Below are positions 42,920 to 60,244 of a DNA stretch of 64,000 bases, piece by piece. Position numbers and translations under genes: made by a program. The DNA lies in assembly GCA_022402465.1 (NCBI GenBank), contig JAKRSH010000043.1:248001-312000 (forward strand), in the 5' to 3' direction. Source of the stretch: Leptospiraceae bacterium. Lineage in GTDB: Bacteria; Spirochaetota; Leptospiria; Leptospirales; Leptospiraceae. Positions within the stretch are counted from its first letter, which is position 1; each line of letters starts with the position of its first letter. Below the pieces are notes generated by a model. The model saw only the letters and a list, made by a program, of their open reading frames with translations, searched no databases and was not told the DNA's origin.

Positions 42920-44500
42920 CTAAAAGAATAAACCTTTCTTCTTGCGTGTGGTGCGCCTTCTAGTGGTTGGCTTGAGACCTAATACTCCGAGCAAACCTCT
43001 TGTCACTTCTTTGATTACAATTTTGCCAGCTGCCGATTCGGTTACTTTTTCAAAGGTAGATTTTTCTTCTTTGAGGCTTCTCCCTGAACCTGAAGATTTT
43101 TGATTGGAAGTTTTCTCTTCTGCTTCCGCTCTTTCCTCTTCTAGATTCTTTAATTTCTCGTTGAGAATTTCATAGGCTGAATCTCGGTCTACGGTTTCTG
43201 AGTAATCTTCAATCAAATCACTTTTGGAAATCAATTTTGAAATCTCATCATCCCTTAACACATCCATACGAGACTTAGGTGCAACCAAAAGAGTTGCTGC
43301 AAGTGCTGTTGGACTTCCTTTCTCATTGAGGACGGTGATCAATGCTTCTCCCATACCCAAAGAAGTAAGAGCATCTTCGGTATCATAGTATTCTGAAAGT
43401 GGATAATTCTGTGCGGTAAGTTTAATTTCTTTGCGGTCTTTTGCAGTGAATGCTCTCAATGCATGTTGTACTTTCATACCTAATTGACCTAGCACAGCAT
43501 CTGGAACATCACCAGGAGATTGAGTACAGAAAAAAATTCCAACACCCTTAGATCGAATTAATTTAATAATAGTTTCAATTTGATTGAGAAGTGCCTTAGA
43601 AGCTTCTTGAAAAATCAAATGTGCCTCATCTATGAAAATTACAAGCTTAGGTTTATCCATGTCACCTGCTTCTGGAAAGTTCGCATAGACTTCTGCAAGT
43701 AAACAAAGCATAAAAGTGGAAAAAAGCTTAGGCTTATCCTGTATATCTGTTAGGCGAATTATAGAAACCACACCCTGCCCTTTCTCATTCACGCGAACGA
43801 GATCTTCCACTTCGAAAGATGGCTCACCAAAAAATTCCTCAGCTCCCTGGGATTCAAGCTCTACAATCTTTCTAAGAATAATACTTAAGCTAGATTCTGA
43901 AATCTTGCCATAATCCGCTTCTAGTTCTTTCTTCCCTTCTTCGGTAGCAAATTGAATGATCTTCTTCATGTCTTTAAGATCAAGCAAGGCGTATTTATGA
44001 TCATCGCAGTATTTAAATAAAATAGTCACTAAGCTTGCTTGGGTATCATTCAATTCTAGAATCTTGGAAAATAAAATGGGACCAAATTCGGAAACAGTAG
44101 CACGCAGCCTGACACCTGGCTCCTTGGATAGACTTAAGAATTCAACCGGACTAGCTGAGGGTTTGTATTCATCTCCGATTTTCTTCTGGCGTTCCTCTAT
44201 CTTTTCATTGCTCTCTCCAGCAGCAGCTATACCACTTAAGTCACCCTTAACATCCATCACCAAACAGGGTACACCTTTTTCCGAAAGCCTCTCGGCTATA
44301 ATTTGTAAAGTCTTGGTCTTACCGGTTCCTGTTGCACCTGCAATAAGACCATGTCGATTGAAAGTTTTGAGTGGAGCTGTAACGTGAGTGGAAGGAAGTG
44401 CTTCACCATCCAAGATTGCAGTTCCCAATAAAATGGTATCACCTTTAGATGCATAGGATTGAAGTATGGTTTCTTGGAATTTGGACTTAGATTTTGACAT
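42920..44500 (-). CDS. HerA/YjgR-like ATPase (DUF853)
   Basis: A 526-residue P-loop ATPase of the FtsK-HerA superfamily, DUF853/YjgR group. It has Walker [13 protein letters not shown] (about 55-66), then [11 protein letters not shown], Walker [13 protein letters not shown], and the [19 protein letters not shown] segment with the conserved glutamine sensor. The C-terminal about 90 residues are a charged coiled coil followed by a basic tail ([12 protein letters not shown]). Family members are thought to act as hexameric DNA pumps, but the cellular role of YjgR is not settled. It lies directly upstream of recQ, which is consistent with a DNA-processing role, and is divergent from the caspase-like gene. 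Confidence 0.87.
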
Positions 44501-44601
44501 TGCCTAAATATCCAAGAAAACCCCTACATATGTCAAGCAGAGTTTTTCACAAAAAATTCTTGATTCTTTCAGTGAAATCTACCAGTCTACTCATCTGGAG
44601 T

Positions 44602-46290
44602 ATGAACTTGAAAAAAATAAATATCCTAGTCCTTTTGATCCTTTGTTTTCCTGTCTATCTATTTTCCCAAGATCGTTATGGCCTAATCATAGGTACCAAT
44701 TACAAAGGAAATACTGCCAAGATTCCTGAACTTGCTTTGTGCGAGAGAGATGCTGAGTATCTAAAGAACCAAGTTCAAAAATTTGGAGAATTCAAAGATG
44801 TAAGAGTTCTTTTGGGTGCCCAAGTTACCAAGGCGAATGTTCAGAAAGAAATTGACATACTAGCTAAGAAAGCCAAGAAAGAAGACACTGTCTTTTTATA
44901 TTTTTCAGGTCATGGAACCTACCAAAATGATGCCAAGGCTCCTAATGGGATGAGGAACTATCTTGTCTGTTATGATAGACCCCATATTTCCGATGATGAA
45001 TTAAATAAGTATTTATCTACAATTAAATCTCCCAAAACCTTGATGATGTTAGATTGTTGTTACTCAGGTGGTATTGCCAAAAAAGGAAAGAACACAAGAG
45101 GCTCATCTCCTGTCCCAATTCCTGAGGGCACCAATGGAGTGGTGAAGCAAAATGCGGAAGACTATTATTTCCAAAATAAAACCATCATCTCCTCAGCCGA
45201 TGATAACCAAACTGCCATAGAAGTTGGTGGATCCATCAATCACGGAATCTTCACGTATAATTTCGGTAGAGCCATTGAGAATGCTGATCTTAACGGAGAT
45301 AAGGTGATCACTGCCTTAGAGGCCTTCTTTGTTTCTCGTTCAGAAACGGAAAAGATGGCTAAAAGATTCAATCATGAACAAACTCCCCAGATATCGGGAG
45401 ATGCATCTGGTGTATTTCTTGCTGGCAAGGCGTCCCCTACTCCACCCACACCTCCCGCTAAGCCACCTACAAACGTAGCGCAACCACTTCCACCTATTCA
45501 AGAAACACCTACTCCAGAACCTATTGCTCCCGTTGCTACTCCTGTTAGTCCCCCCACTGTGGTTACACCGGAAGAACCTGTAGCTCCTCCTGTAACACCG
45601 AATGTAGGAACAATTCTCATTCGAACAACTATAATCAAAGCAAAAGAGCTTAGCTCTAATAAGGGAAATGATCCTTATCAGTTACTCAAAAAACAAAAGC
45701 TACCTATGAATACCAAAAATGCTTCTGATTCTAAATCAGAAAGTAGAACAATCAAGGTCTTGATAGATGGACAAGAATATCCGTCTAAGGTAATAGCCGT
45801 TAAATCAAATCTTTGGGGAGCTTCTATGGTTCAAGGTAGATTGATTCCTGGAGAAGTCTACCATGTAAAAGTTGAAGGAATCACAACTGGCGTTCATAAG
45901 GTTACAGTCTTAGCTGATGAATACCCACAATTTGAATCTGCAATTGGGGTCCTTCCCAACCAAGATAATATTCTAGATGTATCTTCAAGTATCGGTGGAT
46001 ATGGAGCAATCCAAGGTAAAGTATTCTTTAAGACTCTAGATAACCCCGTTTCTAACCAACCTATTTATATGCCAACGATAGTATCAACACGTGGAGTACA
46101 GAAAGTATTTACCGATAAGGATGGTAACTTCTGGTTTACAAACTTAAAGCCTGGGACTTATGAAATTCGAGCAAGTTTTGCAGAAGAAATGAAACTAGAG
46201 AATTCAATGATAGTGGTCAAGCCAGGAGAAGTTAGTAAGGTAGATATAATTCTTAATGTTAAGACTAAAAGCACTAAGACAAAATACTAG
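44602..46290 (+). CDS. Exported caspase-like (peptidase C14/metacaspase) protein with carboxypeptidase-regulatory-like C-terminus
   Basis: A 562-residue protein. It starts with a signal peptide ([16 protein letters not shown]). The caspase-fold domain (about 24-270) has a [11 protein letters not shown] opening and the catalytic dyad: H104 in [11 protein letters not shown] and C153 in [12 protein letters not shown] proline-rich linker (about 280-335) follows, and then two beta-sandwich modules; the last ([16 protein letters not shown]..., with [18 protein letters not shown]) resembles carboxypeptidase regulatory domains. It is predicted to be periplasmic or outer-membrane associated. The start was chosen for the signal peptide; ATG 44530 is an alternative and the ribosome binding site spacing here is poor. 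Its 3' end overlaps the convergent kinase gene by 17 bases. Confidence 0.82.
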
Positions 46291-48262
46291 ATTTCGTAGG
46301 TAACCAATTTCCCAAAACATCTCCAAGCCTATTGCGATCAATTGGCTTGGAGATATAATCATTCATTCCAGAATGCATAAATTTTTCCTTATCACCATCT
46401 AGAGAATGTGCTGTTACTGCGATAATATTTACAGCTTGAAGTTTATTTTCTTCTTCATATTCTCGAATCAATTGAGTTGCTTCCATACCATCCATAACAG
46501 GCATTTGTATATCCATGAATACTAGATCTACCCTAGAAGACTTTAAATATTCATAGGCTTCTTTACCATTCGATACAACAATGATTTCAAAATTATAGTT
46601 CTTCAGCATAGATTGAAGAACTTTTTGGTTCACCTCATTATCCTCAACGATTAAGACCTTAATGACAGTATTGTCTAGGCTTGGAAAAAATTTTGCACTT
46701 TCAAGCTTAGAGTCATGCTTAGAATCTCGAGACTCAAATTCTATAGTAAACCAAAACTCTGATCCCTCGGTTTTTGATTTGTATCCAATTTCTCCATTCA
46801 TAAAGGAAACTAGGCGCTTACAAATAGATAAACCCAAACCTGCTCCTTCATATTTCCTTGTATAAGACCCATCAATTTGTTGGAAGGGTTTGAATAGAAG
46901 CTGGACTTTTTCAGGAGGAATTCCTATTCCATAATCAATAATACTGAATTTTAATAGAATCTTATTCGAAGTCCTAGCTGCTTCCTTAGTTACATGAATA
47001 TCAATTCTTGAGTTATCATGAGAAAATTTAATTGCATTGCCTATTATATTTACAAGAACTTGGATTAAACGTCCTGGATCCCCATAAAGCTGGTCGGGGA
47101 TAGATTCTTCAATGACCAAATCACAAAATAATGATTTTTCTTTGGCACGAGAATGAAATATATTGATTGCGGAATTTAATATTTCTGATAGAGAAAAGAT
47201 TTCATTTTCCAAACGAAGATTGCCTGATTCAATCTTGGAAAAATCTAGAATGTCATTGATCAATCGGAGCAAAATTTTGCCTGAGGACTTAATGATAGCA
47301 AGAAAACTGGCCTGTTCATCATTCAAATCAGTTTCTTCTAACAACTCACTAATTCCAATAATCCCATTCAAAGGAGTTCTAACCTCATGACTCATATTGG
47401 CAAGAAATTGAGATTTAATTCGGCTTGCCTCTTCAGCTTCTCTAAGTACTGATTTTAACTCGATATTGCTTGATTCTAAATTACTTCTGTATAAAACTAA
47501 TTGAGATTCAGTTTTCCTTTGTTCCGTATAATCTATAGTAGATGTAACAATGTAACGTATCTTCTCATCTTCTATAATGGGAGAGAGGGTTGTCTTAAAA
47601 AAATAAGAATTTCCATTTAAAGTTATTTCTTTTTCAACTGTGATCATCCCCTCATTTAGACATCTCTTGAATGTATCCTCAACTAATCTTCCACTTGTAT
47701 CTCCAAAAATTTCAAGAGCTGTTTTATTGATAAGTTTATCTGCTCGTAATCCAAATTTATTCAAAAAGCTAGAGTTAGCTCTAAGATAGACAAAATTATC
47801 TGGAGATTCTACATGAATCAAAGCGAGTAAATCTTGGGTTCCATTGAATACAATTTCATATTCAACCGCAAGATTTTTTGAGAACTTTTCAGAGACTTTG
47901 ATTTGCGTTATATCTAAAAAAGTTACTATAAAACCATCATCTAACTTAGAAGCGATGATTTGAAACCATAGATCCACGCCTTCATGACGGTAATGGTGTT
48001 CGAATTCAATTTTTTTGCCTGTTTCCACAACAGACTTATAACGATCAAACAATCGATCATTTTTATTACCAGGCATGATGGTTAAAAGGCTTTTGCCGAT
48101 TAAGTGCTCAGCCTCCATACCTATTATTTCTTCGGCTGATTTATTAACAAGTATCCAACGAAAATCAATAATTTGGTTCTGGTTATCTCGAATCGATTCA
48201 AATGCCATAATTCCCGATTGAACTGTATCCAAAACATTTACTAGAATTGATTCCTTGTTCAT
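46274..48262 (-). CDS. PAS-domain hybrid histidine kinase with receiver
   Basis: A 662-residue cytoplasmic sensor kinase with no membrane segment. Two PAS domains (about 1-125 and 130-250) are followed by a coiled coil and HisKA ([18 protein letters not shown]), the HATPase domain ([24 protein letters not shown] and [15 protein letters not shown]), and a C-terminal receiver ([15 protein letters not shown], with the aspartate in [17 protein letters not shown]). All motifs are intact. It would sense an internal small molecule or redox state through PAS and pass phosphate on through a separate phosphotransfer protein. It is convergent with the caspase-like gene and lies 48 bases upstream of nothing on its own strand except the lipoprotein gene at 48311. 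Confidence 0.9.
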
Positions 48263-48310
48263 AATCTGAAATATGCCCTGCTCTGGTAATAGACTATAAG
48301 AATTCTATTT

Positions 48311-49141
48311 TTAAAAACCTTTTTTCTTTCGAAAGATATTTTGTTCCTGGATGGAATCAATTTTCTTTTCAGGAGTTCTAGGAGGAGCTTCTTTAAAATC
48401 AGAGTCATCGAATTTTTTAGATTTCACTTCTGGTCTCACTTTGATGGAAAAGTAAGAACTTCTCGATACCAAATTCCATTCTCTATATTGAATGAGGTTG
48501 CCATTTAAGGTAACTGAATCATAGGGATAGGTATCTTTTTCTTTATTCAAACGATTGATAGATGATTTGTATTGGGATTGGCAATTGCTTACTGAGGAGC
48601 AGCCATCCTCAGCGAGCAGATTATTCTTCTTTAAGTCTTTCAGAATTTCTGATTTGATTCTAGGGCAATCAGATCCTGAATTGAGACAGAGCTCTTGGAC
48701 GATAGGATCTATCAATAATAATTCCAAATGAGCTGAGTAAGGCCCATCCTGAATTGCAGTGGGTATTATAAGTCTTTGGCTGAATTTGGAATCTGGCTTA
48801 GCTGACTTAGAAGCAAGCAAATTCTGTCGCGCAATTTCCTTACCTGTTGAATCCAGTAGAACCAGTTTGTGGAAGACTATTTCACCACTCTGAATCATCT
48901 GCAAGAGATTCAAGCCTGAGTTATTTGTTGTGATCTCTAAATCAATATAGGAATTACCAGATTGATCTAATTTTAATTCTAAGGAAGTAGAAGCATCTTG
49001 GGCTTGGATCAATACAGAAGATAGATCTATACTCTCGTTAGTGCGGGGAATATAGTTCCCGGAAGTCTTACAATTTAGAATGGATAGAAAAAATAAAGAA
49101 GTGGAAATTAAGATTAGAGATGGGATTCTAATTTGTACCAT
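48311..49141 (-). CDS. Lipoprotein of unknown function with a hairpin at its start codon
   Basis: A 276-residue lipoprotein: signal IPSLILISTSLFFLSILNC, with the lipid cysteine at about residue 24, then KTSG. The mature part has a beta-rich N-terminal half (SLELKLDQSGNSYIDLEITT and the following strands), three further cysteines (in ELCLNSGSDC and DGCSSVSNC) that may form disulfides, and a Lys/Pro-rich tail (APPRTPEKKIDS). No family was recognised. The start codon lies within a perfect 14-bp inverted repeat (49110-49151), which would sequester it in mRNA. The ribosome binding site AAGATTAGAG is weak. The gene belongs to the same strand as the hybrid kinase downstream. Confidence 0.7.
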   Translation of the reverse strand: MVQIRIPSLILISTSLFFLSILNCKTSGNYIPRTNESIDLSSVLIQAQDASTSLELKLDQSGNSYIDLEITTNNSGLNLLQMIQSGEIVFHKLVLLDSTGKEIARQNLLASKSAKPDSKFSQRLIIPTAIQDGPYSAHLELLLIDPIVQELCLNSGSDCPRIKSEILKDLKKNNLLAEDGCSSVSNCQSQYKSSINRLNKEKDTYPYDSVTLNGNLIQYREWNLVSRSSYFSIKVRPEVKSKKFDDSDFKEAPPRTPEKKIDSIQEQNIFRKKKGF

Positions 49142-49151
49142 CTCTAATCTT
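49110..49151 (-). promoter_or_regulatory. Perfect 14-bp inverted repeat enclosing the lipoprotein start codon
   Basis: On the minus strand AAGATTAGAGATGG (49151-49138) and CCATCTCTAATCTT (49123-49110) are exactly complementary, with a 14-base loop. The first arm contains the translation start ATG (49141-49139) and the nearest purine-rich stretch; the second arm encodes residues in the signal peptide. In RNA the hairpin would close over the start codon. Confidence 0.6.
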
Positions 49152-49192
49152 GGGTCGATGAATTCAGTTTCGTCAACTCATTTTAAATCAAA

Positions 49193-49798
49193 TTAAAGTG
49201 TGTCAGAGTAAGAATCTTCTAACTTTTTTAAATCTTCAGTTTTGATTACTTTTGTAGAGTTGAGCTTTCCATTTTGAGAAAGTTTCAAGATTGTTGAAGA
49301 ACCAATTTCTTGCGAAGAAACAAGAATTTCTTGGAATTTGTCACCTTCAAGAGTATACAACTTTCCTTCTTGATCTTGGAAGGCATAGAAATCTTGGGAC
49401 TTGCTTTCAGTACTTACGGAAATTTTTAATTTTTTTCCAAAATCAGAATAGCTAAGTTTTACTTTTTCATTTCCATTTTGAAATTCACGCACTAAAGTAC
49501 CATCTGAATTAAATTCATTCATAGCTACTGGATTGGAACCAGTCCAAAATTCAACAAGATTGAATAAGAGAACATCCGCAAGAAATCCAATTCCGTAAAG
49601 AATGCTGAACGGAAAGTACATTAAAATGGTTTTGATGAACTTATTAAGAAGACCACTTCCGATATTTAAGCCTTTATGAGCACCATAAACCGCTTTAACA
49701 ATTCCGAAACTTCCGAAACAATTCACAGTGGAAAACATTCCTACGACGGCAATGCAAAGGACTGTGATTGCTTTTTTAAAATTTTTTATCTGAGGCAT
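49193..49798 (-). CDS. DUF3332 family exported protein
   Basis: A 201-residue protein matching DUF3332 in layout: a signal segment (ITVLCIAVVGMFSTVNC), a conserved GSFGIVKAVYGAHKGLNIGSG stretch, a membrane-like helix (FIKTILMYFPFSILYGIGFLADVLLFNLVEFWTGSNPV), and a beta-rich C-terminal half of about 90 residues. The cysteine in STVNC could be a lipid site, though the region before it is not ideal. Function is unknown. The ATG at 49798 has AAGGAG ten bases upstream, so the longer frame to 49864 is rejected. It is transcribed toward the lipoprotein gene, 51 bases away. Confidence 0.78.
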   Translation of the reverse strand: MPQIKNFKKAITVLCIAVVGMFSTVNCFGSFGIVKAVYGAHKGLNIGSGLLNKFIKTILMYFPFSILYGIGFLADVLLFNLVEFWTGSNPVAMNEFNSDGTLVREFQNGNEKVKLSYSDFGKKLKISVSTESKSQDFYAFQDQEGKLYTLEGDKFQEILVSSQEIGSSTILKLSQNGKLNSTKVIKTEDLKKLEDSYSDTL

Positions 49799-49908
49799 AC
49801 AAAAATTTCTCCTTGAGTATGTTGGTTGATTGATAGTATAAGCAGAATCATAATTTCCTTGCAAGTATTCTTTTTTTTCGTAAAATGACGTATTGACAAC
49901 TCCAAACT

Positions 49909-51366
49909 ATGATCTTTTCTAATTTTGAATTTTTCTTATTTCTTGTTATCGTTTTTTTCCTTCATTGGTATCTTATTCCATTTCTTTATAAGGATGCTGC
50001 CAAACAAATTAAGGCAATTCATATCCTTCTTCTCATATGCAGTTATCTTTTTTACATGAATTGGGATTGGCGATTTGGTTTTCTAATATTTATCAGCACA
50101 GCAATTGATTACTACGCAGGTTTAATCATCTTTGACTCAACTTCTGAAAAAGTTCGAAAGACTGCTCTTTGGATCAGCTTGACGGTCAATCTTGTTTTTA
50201 TCTTAGGATTTTTTAAATACTACAATTTCTTTTCATCCTCTTTCAATCGTCTCATGCAAGAAGGACTTGGCTTTCCAAATTCTCTTCCTATCCTAGATAT
50301 AGTTCTTCCAGTGGGTGTATCTTTCTACACCTTTCAATCTATGAGTTATACGATTGATATTTATAGGAAAATCATTCCCTCTGAAAAAAGTTTTATCAAA
50401 TTTGCTCTCTTTGTATCTTTCTTTCCTCAATTAGTGGCAGGTCCTATAGTAACTGCTAAGACATTTATTCCCCAACTCAGTTCTTTAAAAAAACTAGAAG
50501 ACATACCTTTTCGAAAAGCCTTTCGTTACTTCTTTATGGGATATTTTAAAAAGGTTGTCTTATCTGATAATGTTTCTCCCATAGTTGATCTAATTTTTAA
50601 TAATCCAGAATCGTACAGCTCTATAGCTGTTTGGCTTGCTGCTTTTTTATTTTGTATCCAAATCTATTGTGACTTCAGTGGATATACTGATATGGCATAT
50701 TCAGTTGCTCTTTTATTTGGATATGAACTTCCCGAAAATTTCAGAATGCCTTTCACTTCGTTAAGCATAACAGAGCATTGGCGAAGATGGCATATTACAC
50801 TATCTACATGGTTGCGTGATTATGTGTATATTTCCATGGGTGGCTCTCGCGCAGGAATGTTGAGGCATAGATTTAATCTCATGTTTACTATGTTTGTTGG
50901 TGGAATATGGCATGGTGCGAATTGGACCTTTGCGGTCTGGGGTTTATCCCAGGGAATTCTCTTATTTATCGAAAGCCTTTTAAAAGATTTTAGAATTAAG
51001 TTTATTAAATTCAATTATGATTTCTTGAAGCCAAGTATGAATGTATTTCGTTGGTTCTATACTGCAATTCTAACAGCCTTATTTACAACTTGCTTTCGAG
51101 CTGACTCTTTAGAGACAGAATGGATTATTCTTGGTAAAATGTTCTCCAACCAAGATGGAATCCTTAGACCTTATATGCTCAAGACTGGACTACCTGTGCT
51201 TGCTATTGTCTATATTACTCATTGGATAGGACATTTTATTTATGAAAAAAATTGGAAAGTTCACATCAATCCAAGGCTAGAATTTGTTTCTTATCCTTTG
51301 TTAATTCTTCTATTTTCTTTATTCACTCCAGATATTGTGATCCCTTTTGTTTATTTTCAGTTTTAA
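49909..51366 (+). CDS. MBOAT-family O-acyltransferase (AlgI-like)
   Basis: A 485-residue polytopic membrane protein of the AlgI/DltB branch of MBOAT enzymes, which transfer acyl groups, usually acetyl, to cell-surface glycans or lipids. Landmarks are PVGVSFYTFQSMSYTIDIYR, FFPQLVAGPIV, CDFSGYTDMAYSVALLFGY, HWRRWHITLSTWLRDYVYI and the catalytic-histidine motif GGIWHGANWTFAVWG. It ends PFVYFQF, the same tail as the second MBOAT at 61457. No SGNH partner lies next to this copy. It is divergent from DUF3332 and followed by the PilZ gene. The acceptor is unknown. Confidence 0.92.
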   Translation: MIFSNFEFFLFLVIVFFLHWYLIPFLYKDAAKQIKAIHILLLICSYLFYMNWDWRFGFLIFISTAIDYYAGLIIFDSTSEKVRKTALWISLTVNLVFILGFFKYYNFFSSSFNRLMQEGLGFPNSLPILDIVLPVGVSFYTFQSMSYTIDIYRKIIPSEKSFIKFALFVSFFPQLVAGPIVTAKTFIPQLSSLKKLEDIPFRKAFRYFFMGYFKKVVLSDNVSPIVDLIFNNPESYSSIAVWLAAFLFCIQIYCDFSGYTDMAYSVALLFGYELPENFRMPFTSLSITEHWRRWHITLSTWLRDYVYISMGGSRAGMLRHRFNLMFTMFVGGIWHGANWTFAVWGLSQGILLFIESLLKDFRIKFIKFNYDFLKPSMNVFRWFYTAILTALFTTCFRADSLETEWIILGKMFSNQDGILRPYMLKTGLPVLAIVYITHWIGHFIYEKNWKVHINPRLEFVSYPLLILLFSLFTPDIVIPFVYFQF

Positions 51367-58376: not shown

Positions 58377-59324
58377 ATGAATGTAAAATACTTTTTGCCT
58401 GCTTTATTACTGATTTCTCCTTTTTTGACCTGCAAAAAATCATCTGAAAATCAATCTACATTAGGCTCAACCCAAGCAATTGTGTTTCTTTTAAAAGGCT
58501 CTGTAACCTTGAAAGATGCATCTGGGAAAGTGATTCCCATAGAGCCAAAAGTCACAAGAATTGCCAGTGAGCATACCATCGAAACATCTAAATCATCTTA
58601 TGCGGATATTTTACTTTCTGATGCTTCTATCATTCGTATCTACCAAAATACGAAACTTCAAATTCAATCTATACTTTCAGATAATGGCCTTGATGAGTCG
58701 AAGGTCGTCTTAACTACAGGGAAGTTGTTTGTTAAAACGGAAGGTAAAATTAACAAAGAAAGAAGTATTATAGTGACTACTCCAACCACTGTTGCAGGTG
58801 TACGTGGAACAGAATTTACAATTGAGGAAACAGAGAACCAATCAACTGTCTTAGTGGGAGAAGGAGCAGTGGAAGGTGGCGCTGTCAACGGAGAAGCAAA
58901 AGTTGTTAGTGCTGGCCAGAAGCTAGATGTCGTTGAAAGCAATGCCAATGTAACACCTATGAGTCGAGAAGAATTAGATAGCTTTAAAGAAGAAAGCCAA
59001 AGCGTAGCTTCTATTGTATCAGATGGAAGAGCAGAAATACAAAATATTCTTCAAAACTTCCAAGAAGAAAAGGCTAAAATCCTAAAAACTATGGAAGAAA
59101 AAAAATCTGATAATTCTAAACTAATCGAAGATAAGAAAGAAGAAAATAAAGTGCTCATCAATGAACAAATCGACAAAAACAAAGATCAAATGAATTCAGT
59201 TAAAACTGGAACAACTGATAAAGCAACAGAAGTCAAAGAAGGGACAGCATCCGAAAAAGAAAAAATACAAAATGATGCAAAAAGTGAAATGGAAAAACTA
59301 AAATCTGGATTTAAGGACATGTAA
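58377..59324 (+). CDS. FecR-domain lipoprotein with C-terminal coiled coil
   Basis: A 315-residue lipoprotein: signal FLPALLLISPFLTC, with the lipid cysteine at about 19 followed by KKSS. The FecR domain (about 35-190) has IVFLLKGSVTLKDASGKV, then ADILLSDASIIRIYQNTKL, GKLFVKTE, TTPTTVAGVRGTEFTIEE and LVGEGAVEGG, the usual repeat of beta strands. The C-terminal about 115 residues are a charged Lys/Glu/Asp/Gln helix, probably a coiled coil for self-association or binding to the cell wall. No ECF sigma factor is near. The ATG at 58377 is preferred over a GTG at 58362. It begins a tight operon with patatin, SGNH and MBOAT genes. Confidence 0.85.
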   Translation: MNVKYFLPALLLISPFLTCKKSSENQSTLGSTQAIVFLLKGSVTLKDASGKVIPIEPKVTRIASEHTIETSKSSYADILLSDASIIRIYQNTKLQIQSILSDNGLDESKVVLTTGKLFVKTEGKINKERSIIVTTPTTVAGVRGTEFTIEETENQSTVLVGEGAVEGGAVNGEAKVVSAGQKLDVVESNANVTPMSREELDSFKEESQSVASIVSDGRAEIQNILQNFQEEKAKILKTMEEKKSDNSKLIEDKKEENKVLINEQIDKNKDQMNSVKTGTTDKATEVKEGTASEKEKIQNDAKSEMEKLKSGFKDM

Positions 59325-60244
59325 TGGCAGAAACTCTTCCATTAGCTCCCAATAGCCAATCCAAGATATTGATTATAGAAGGAGGAGGAATGAAAGGTTC
59401 CTTCTCTGGTGGTGTACTTTCTGTAATGGCGGAATACTATCCGGCACGTAATTTTGATACCATTTTAGCTGTTTCTTCCGGTTCTTGTTCTGCCGCCTAT
59501 TATGCGACAGCTAAGAATCATTTAGATGCTCAGATAAAGAATATAGTGAACATTTGGAGAAACGAACTAGACGGTAGAAAATTAATCAATAGACTGAAAT
59601 TTTTTATAGGGAAGCCTATGTTAAATCAGAAGTATCTTATAGATTATTTAATGAAAGAAAAATATCCTCTTCCTTTTAAGAATCTTTCCATGCCCAAATT
59701 CCCCTCCTTTCATATTGTTGTCTCCAATATTAAGAAGTTAAAACCAGAATATATAAGAGCCACGGAAGAGAACATCTTTGGTTTATTACATGCTGCAACT
59801 TCTCTGCCAATAGCAACTCGTGGCGAACATAAATTAGATGGTAATCTGTATACCGATGGAGCAGTTCTTGATCCCCTACCAATTCGAGCAGCAATTGAAG
59901 CTGGGTACAAAGATATAACTGTTGTTATGAATAACCCATTTACTCAATCTACTAAAAAATACAACCGACTACTTTCATTGATCTCTTTTCCTTTCTATGG
60001 AAAGCTTGCCAAAATTTTAACCAAAGAAAATGAATACCGTTATTCATCTGCTAAGGAACTTATCGTACATCCTCCCCAAGGTGTGAAAATCAAAGCAATC
60101 TATCCGACTTATCCCTTAATAGGGTTAGTTTCCACTAACAAGGAAATGTTGAACCGAGCAATCAACCATGGGATTGAGAAAGGTTTGAAAGCTTTTAGAG
60201 ATACGAAAAAAGGTTTAGATCAGATTTTTTCTTATTTCTCTTAA
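59324..60244 (+). CDS. Patatin-like phospholipase (RssA/YjjU type)
   Basis: A 306-residue patatin-fold lipid hydrolase. The oxyanion-hole glycine loop is IIEGGGMKGSFSGGVLSV (about 17-34), the nucleophile elbow AVSSGSCSAAYY with the active serine in VSSG, and the aspartate of the dyad in YTDGAVLDPLPIRAAIEAG. The first glycine of GxSxG is alanine, an accepted change. There is no signal peptide or membrane span, so it acts in the cytoplasm on phospholipid or acyl substrates. The ATG overlaps the stop of the FecR lipoprotein by one base. The substrate is unknown. Confidence 0.88.
   Translation: MAETLPLAPNSQSKILIIEGGGMKGSFSGGVLSVMAEYYPARNFDTILAVSSGSCSAAYYATAKNHLDAQIKNIVNIWRNELDGRKLINRLKFFIGKPMLNQKYLIDYLMKEKYPLPFKNLSMPKFPSFHIVVSNIKKLKPEYIRATEENIFGLLHAATSLPIATRGEHKLDGNLYTDGAVLDPLPIRAAIEAGYKDITVVMNNPFTQSTKKYNRLLSLISFPFYGKLAKILTKENEYRYSSAKELIVHPPQGVKIKAIYPTYPLIGLVSTNKEMLNRAINHGIEKGLKAFRDTKKGLDQIFSYFS

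Follow-up and report, generated by a model that had tools for sequence, protein, structure and literature searches.

The leader of the lig genes (ligA/ligB) of Leptospira interrogans is a repressive RNA thermometer in which both the Shine-Dalgarno sequence and the AUG are hidden (PMC7821625). For the start hairpin of the MS2 coat-protein gene, translation yield follows the free energy of the hairpin, according to work by de Smit and van Duin as it is discussed in PMC9894550. Two further processes bear on a start codon found within a stem. Many mRNAs of L. interrogans are leaderless, with approximately 440 genes that have leaders of <10 nt (PMC5243855), and template switching can create perfect stems in one event (PMC8794818). 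Here we compare these systems with a hairpin at the start of a leptospiral lipoprotein gene.

The lipoprotein gene and the inverted repeat at its start

The window, i.e. the whole 64,000 nucleotide stretch of DNA that was analysed, is part of the genome of a Leptospira relative and has a low G+C content (35–36%). The gene at 48311-49141 (minus strand) encodes a lipoprotein of 276 amino acids with a signal peptide and the lipobox LSILN-C24. No Pfam or NCBIfam family matched this protein; its unnamed family was present in 8 of 30 genomes of the order, and the distant homologues found across the order have in common C24, a C..C pair and a REW.L...YF motif. The homologous start region, together with the intact open reading frame, indicates that the gene is real. 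The ATG is preceded by an in-frame TGA at a distance of 39-37 nt, and neither the interval between the two nor the stretch from the ATG to the lipobox cysteine contains a further in-frame ATG, GTG or TTG, which ruled out a different in-frame start. As the distance from the ATG to the lipobox cysteine (the signal peptide length) also agreed with that of the distant homologues, these sequence features make the ATG at 49141 very probably the real start.

Analysis of the start region revealed the perfect 14 bp inverted repeat with a 14 base loop that had been described in the original prediction, with sequences and coordinates both correct. The 5′ arm of the mRNA, AAGATTAGAGATGG (5′-AAGATTAGAG-ATG-G-3′; 49151-49138, minus strand), is made up of the last 10 bases of the leader, followed by the ATG (49141-49139) and the first base of codon 2, which agreed with the claim that the first arm contains the start codon. 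The loop, TACAAATTAGAATC (49137-49124, minus strand), covers codons 2–6. The 3′ arm, CCATCTCTAATCTT (49123-49110, minus strand), is in the region coding for the signal peptide, as had also been claimed, and comprises codons 7–10 and two bases of codon 11 (P-S-L-I-L). All 14 pairs of the stem are Watson-Crick and there are no weak positions. A weak ribosome binding region had been placed in the first arm, but the leader contained no Shine-Dalgarno sequence, only an AGAG abutting the ATG, so the 5′ arm hides no recognisable ribosome binding site.

The lipoprotein gene is the second of a same-strand run of three, separated by gaps of 51 nt and 48 nt. Upstream is a gene encoding a DUF3332 lipoprotein-like protein (PF11810; 49193-49798, minus strand), which has its ATG at 49798 after an AAGGAG; its stop and the lipoprotein ATG are 51 nt apart. 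Downstream, 48 nt past the lipoprotein stop, is a gene encoding a PAS hybrid histidine kinase (46274-48262, minus strand), a possible operon partner of the lipoprotein. No terminator-like site was found between the DUF3332, lipoprotein and kinase genes, and the 51 nt intergenic leader (49142-49192, minus strand) has neither such a site nor a Shine-Dalgarno sequence. The hairpin did not itself have the form of an intrinsic terminator, a G+C-rich stem followed by a T-run, as the stem is followed by AATTTCC. With both genes on one strand and no terminator-like site in the 51 nt between them, a read-through mRNA from the DUF3332 gene that bears the 5′ arm is likely.

The DUF3332 gene is flanked on its other side by a divergent MBOAT acyltransferase gene (49909-51366, plus strand). 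This pair was also present in several Leptospiraceae MAGs (loci L020, L021 and L022), where the lipoprotein and kinase genes were absent at that place, and the pairing seems to be kept in the family. A second, diverged DUF3332 copy was found in the same genome (G000:C20:129552-130058, L047), with one in-frame TAA within the aligned stretch. A DUF3332 gene with 35% identity to that of the window, which ranked among the Leptospiraceae matches, was encoded by contig JAMWBX010000025.1 (L072); this contig is titled as an Omnitrophota MAG and is probably mis-binned. Adjoining the kinase gene, the region 44494-46290 (plus strand) of the window encodes a protein of 598 amino acids with a caspase-like N-terminal region (LIIGTNYKG...FSGHGT...DCCYSGG), named by eye.

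Predicted folding and rarity of the hairpin

The AUG was predicted to be paired with a probability of >0.99, both when the hairpin was folded alone and in mRNA contexts of up to 1 kb, and the inner pairs of the stem had probabilities of >0.97 in the 1 kb context. As a prediction, therefore, the burial of the start codon by structure was supported. The nearest-neighbour model gave the hairpin a free energy of -17.8 kcal/mol at 37 °C and -13.3 kcal/mol at 50 °C. Opening the start region cost 19.8 kcal/mol at 20 °C; this value dropped to 15.8 kcal/mol at 37 °C and to 14.6 kcal/mol at 42 °C, and fell to ~2–3 kcal/mol only at 85–90 °C, near which the modelled melting occurred. The start codon remained >99% paired across 10–50 °C, which speaks against the further proposal that translation is gated by temperature. 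A scan of 48000-50000 against Rfam returned no match at E-values of up to 1, and no alternative structure or competing pairing able to make a switch was seen in the folding.

The modelled structure depended on the position of the 5′ end of the transcript. As this end was moved toward the ATG, the AUG remained completely paired as long as the leader had at least 3 nt, whereas with a leader of ≤2 nt the structure largely collapsed (minimum free energy of -4.7 to -3.6), so that the change fell abruptly between the 5′ ends -3 and -2. As the AUG was freed only by 5′ ends at -2 or later, the transcription start site becomes the key question.

The hairpin was compared with a background sample of 464 kb of the same genome (the window and 400 kb beside it), in which 346 starts were crudely predicted from simple ORF-based calls. 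The 464 kb contained three perfect inverted repeats of ≥14 bp with a loop of ≤40, whereas dinucleotide shuffles averaged 0.17; on visual inspection, the two besides the lipoprotein hairpin were a terminator-like stem and a repeat of low complexity. The longest perfect stem over the ATG was 14 bp at the lipoprotein gene and ≤8 bp at the remaining 345 of the 346 predicted starts. When starts were randomised by shuffling the leader and resampling the codons synonymously, the longest stem was 12 bp at most in 6,920 trials, which makes a 14 bp stem unlikely by chance.

The opening cost of the start region at 37 °C also stood apart from the mean over the 346 starts (5.2 kcal/mol, sd 2.6), but here chance came closer. 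Starts as occluded by opening energy made up 37 of 41,520 randomised starts (0.09%, or ~0.9 per 1,000, roughly three per genome) and 36 of 20,000 randomisations of the lipoprotein start itself (0.18%); with thousands of genes, a few such starts would be expected by chance in the absence of selection against them. The local folding z-score was -3.4, with 1 of 200 shuffles equally stable. The site is thus unusual mainly through the perfection of its stem and is less extreme by folding energy, and these frequencies apply to a hairpin that was picked out after inspection of many features of the window.

Only one case ranked above the lipoprotein by opening cost, at 59389, and it was rejected as a start since it corresponds to a Met inside a patatin-like gene. 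This gene starts at 59324 (GGGMKG motif), and within its coding sequence, at 59380-59420 (plus strand), AAGGAGGAGGAATGAAAGG pairs with TTCCTTCTCT in a strong hairpin that resembles a hidden Shine-Dalgarno sequence.

Promoter-like sites, leaderless starts and relatives

Two promoter-like pairs were found near the lipoprotein start, both as predictions, and neither counts as evidence of a promoter. CTGACA-15-TAAAAT (49180-49206, minus strand; 10/12 matches) predicts a start ~32 nt before the ATG and therefore a leader containing the whole arm; pairs as good as this one were present in 19 of 343 genes. The weaker TTGACG-18/19-CAAGAT/AAGATT (49146-49176, minus strand; 8/12 matches) would yield a leaderless transcript. 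The lipoprotein gene lacks a Shine-Dalgarno sequence, as might a leaderless gene, but the -10-like hexamers CAAGAT/AAGATT are weak and there is no TANNNT. By a crude measure, 57% of starts in this genome were without a Shine-Dalgarno sequence (197 without vs 149 with). TANNNT at -12 was found at 15 of the 197 starts without and 2 of the 149 with a Shine-Dalgarno sequence (P = 0.01), a modest enrichment. By analogy with the ~440 L. interrogans genes that have leaders of <10 nt (PMC5243855), a transcription start within or past the first arm is a live possibility.

No close orthologue of the lipoprotein was found in the genus, which was represented by this genome alone, or in the GTDB species contigs or viral contigs. 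The scan of the GTDB species contigs used exact 8-residue words, and relatives below ~80% identity can escape it, which gives its negative result little weight; a second scan of these contigs revealed no nearer relative. The family and order yielded homologues at 23–31% identity only. These had ordinary open starts with no comparable hairpin, and are too distant to be aligned as RNA or to decide function. A repeat family or regulon was also considered and rejected: the exact arm was present only at this site, and its near matches were no commoner than those of a reversed control (40/36 vs 40/36), which gives no sign of a regulon.

Competing explanations and comparison with known systems

The reading that we tentatively prefer, while putting it at somewhat below an even chance, is that a cis-acting start-codon hairpin blocks translation in arm-bearing transcripts at all physiological temperatures, and that a leaderless start or an opener acting in trans relieves the block. 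The analysis itself established the sequence, how rare such a stem is among the starts of this genome, and a predicted structure that changes with the 5′ end. Through the hairpin, no lipoprotein would be translated from transcripts that begin more than ~2 nt ahead of the ATG, DUF3332 read-through among them, and this would hold at every physiological temperature. The protein would then be made from a leaderless transcript with its 5′ end at the ATG, or a trans factor (a protein, a small RNA or a processing nuclease) would open or remove the 5′ arm. The presence of the arm in the transcript, the block in the cell and the manner of relief are steps that we infer. By analogy with the lig leader (PMC7821625) and with the MS2 coat hairpin as discussed in PMC9894550, the lipoprotein should be almost untranslated from arm-bearing mRNA, if such mRNA is made. 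A more specific form, a transcript-isoform switch in which leadered mRNA is silent, leaderless mRNA without the 5′ arm is active, and promoter choice rather than temperature sets translation, is compatible with the modelled boundary but unlikely. The chief rival to a translation block is a non-functional inverted repeat, arising from a template switch (a quasipalindrome) or by chance and tolerated through a leaderless start or scant expression, which is quite possible although on balance doubtful. One template-switch event would suffice for the perfect stem (PMC8794818), and the general excess over chance of perfect repeats of ≥14 bp in the 464 kb of this genome is in keeping with such an origin; long stems are, against this, otherwise absent from starts in this genome. 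Tolerance through a leaderless mRNA, which frees the AUG in the model, fits with how common such mRNAs are in L. interrogans, with the TANNNT enrichment here and with a lipoprotein gene that has no Shine-Dalgarno sequence. The -10-like hexamers located where a leaderless start would need them are, however, poor, the better site predicts a 32 nt leader, and upstream read-through would still bear the arm.

Three other explanations carry less weight. The hairpin might serve the upstream RNA, as a 3′-end stabiliser or as a processing site that parts the DUF3332 mRNA from the downstream genes; the stem starts ~41 nt past the DUF3332 stop and no classical terminator separates the genes, but no U-run follows the stem, its exact position over the ATG of the next gene would be a coincidence, and a duplex of this length is short for RNase III, which counts against a processing site. 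This role is decidedly unlikely. An RNA thermometer opening at host temperature has a precedent in the lig leader of L. interrogans (PMC7821625), yet is very improbable at this locus, where the duplex is uninterrupted and without weak pairs; because the modelled stem stays closed until ~85–90 °C, the hairpin is not a credible unassisted thermometer at biological temperatures, and this reading is strongly disfavoured. Least probable of all is a DNA operator near the lipoprotein promoter, with two inverted half-sites bound by a regulator. The inverted symmetry about the gene start would suit it, but perfect 14-base arms with their centres 28 bp apart are atypical of operators, and half-site-like sequences were as frequent in the reversed control, with no second target seen.

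If the translation block preferred above is functional, the lipoprotein gene would be a further leptospiral lipoprotein gene controlled at translation by a hairpin over its start codon, this time where no Shine-Dalgarno sequence is present, and a simple test case for comparing leaderless and leadered mRNAs of one gene. If it is not, the locus is a tidy case of a perfect inverted repeat landing on a start codon. It is at most a further, putatively regulatory, example of the known start-codon hairpins. Like the leaderless genes of L. interrogans (PMC5243855), the lipoprotein gene has no Shine-Dalgarno sequence, and if its transcript were leaderless, synthesis of the protein in spite of the hairpin would be accounted for; the gene differs from them in being known from sequence alone and in having a poor -10-like sequence at the right distance. 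As in the lig leader (PMC7821625), the start codon of a leptospiral mRNA is held within a stem, and both mRNAs would encode surface proteins, although the surface exposure of the lipoprotein named in the original prediction is an assumption. The lig leader, however, hides a Shine-Dalgarno sequence and senses temperature, whereas here there is none to hide and the perfect stem is predicted to be stable past 80 °C; the lipoprotein gene is also unrelated to the lig genes and probably internal to an operon. The MS2 coat hairpin, as discussed in PMC9894550, likewise holds its start codon within the hairpin, but is shorter (27 nt) and has a partial Shine-Dalgarno sequence, whereas the lipoprotein hairpin is longer, perfect and cellular.
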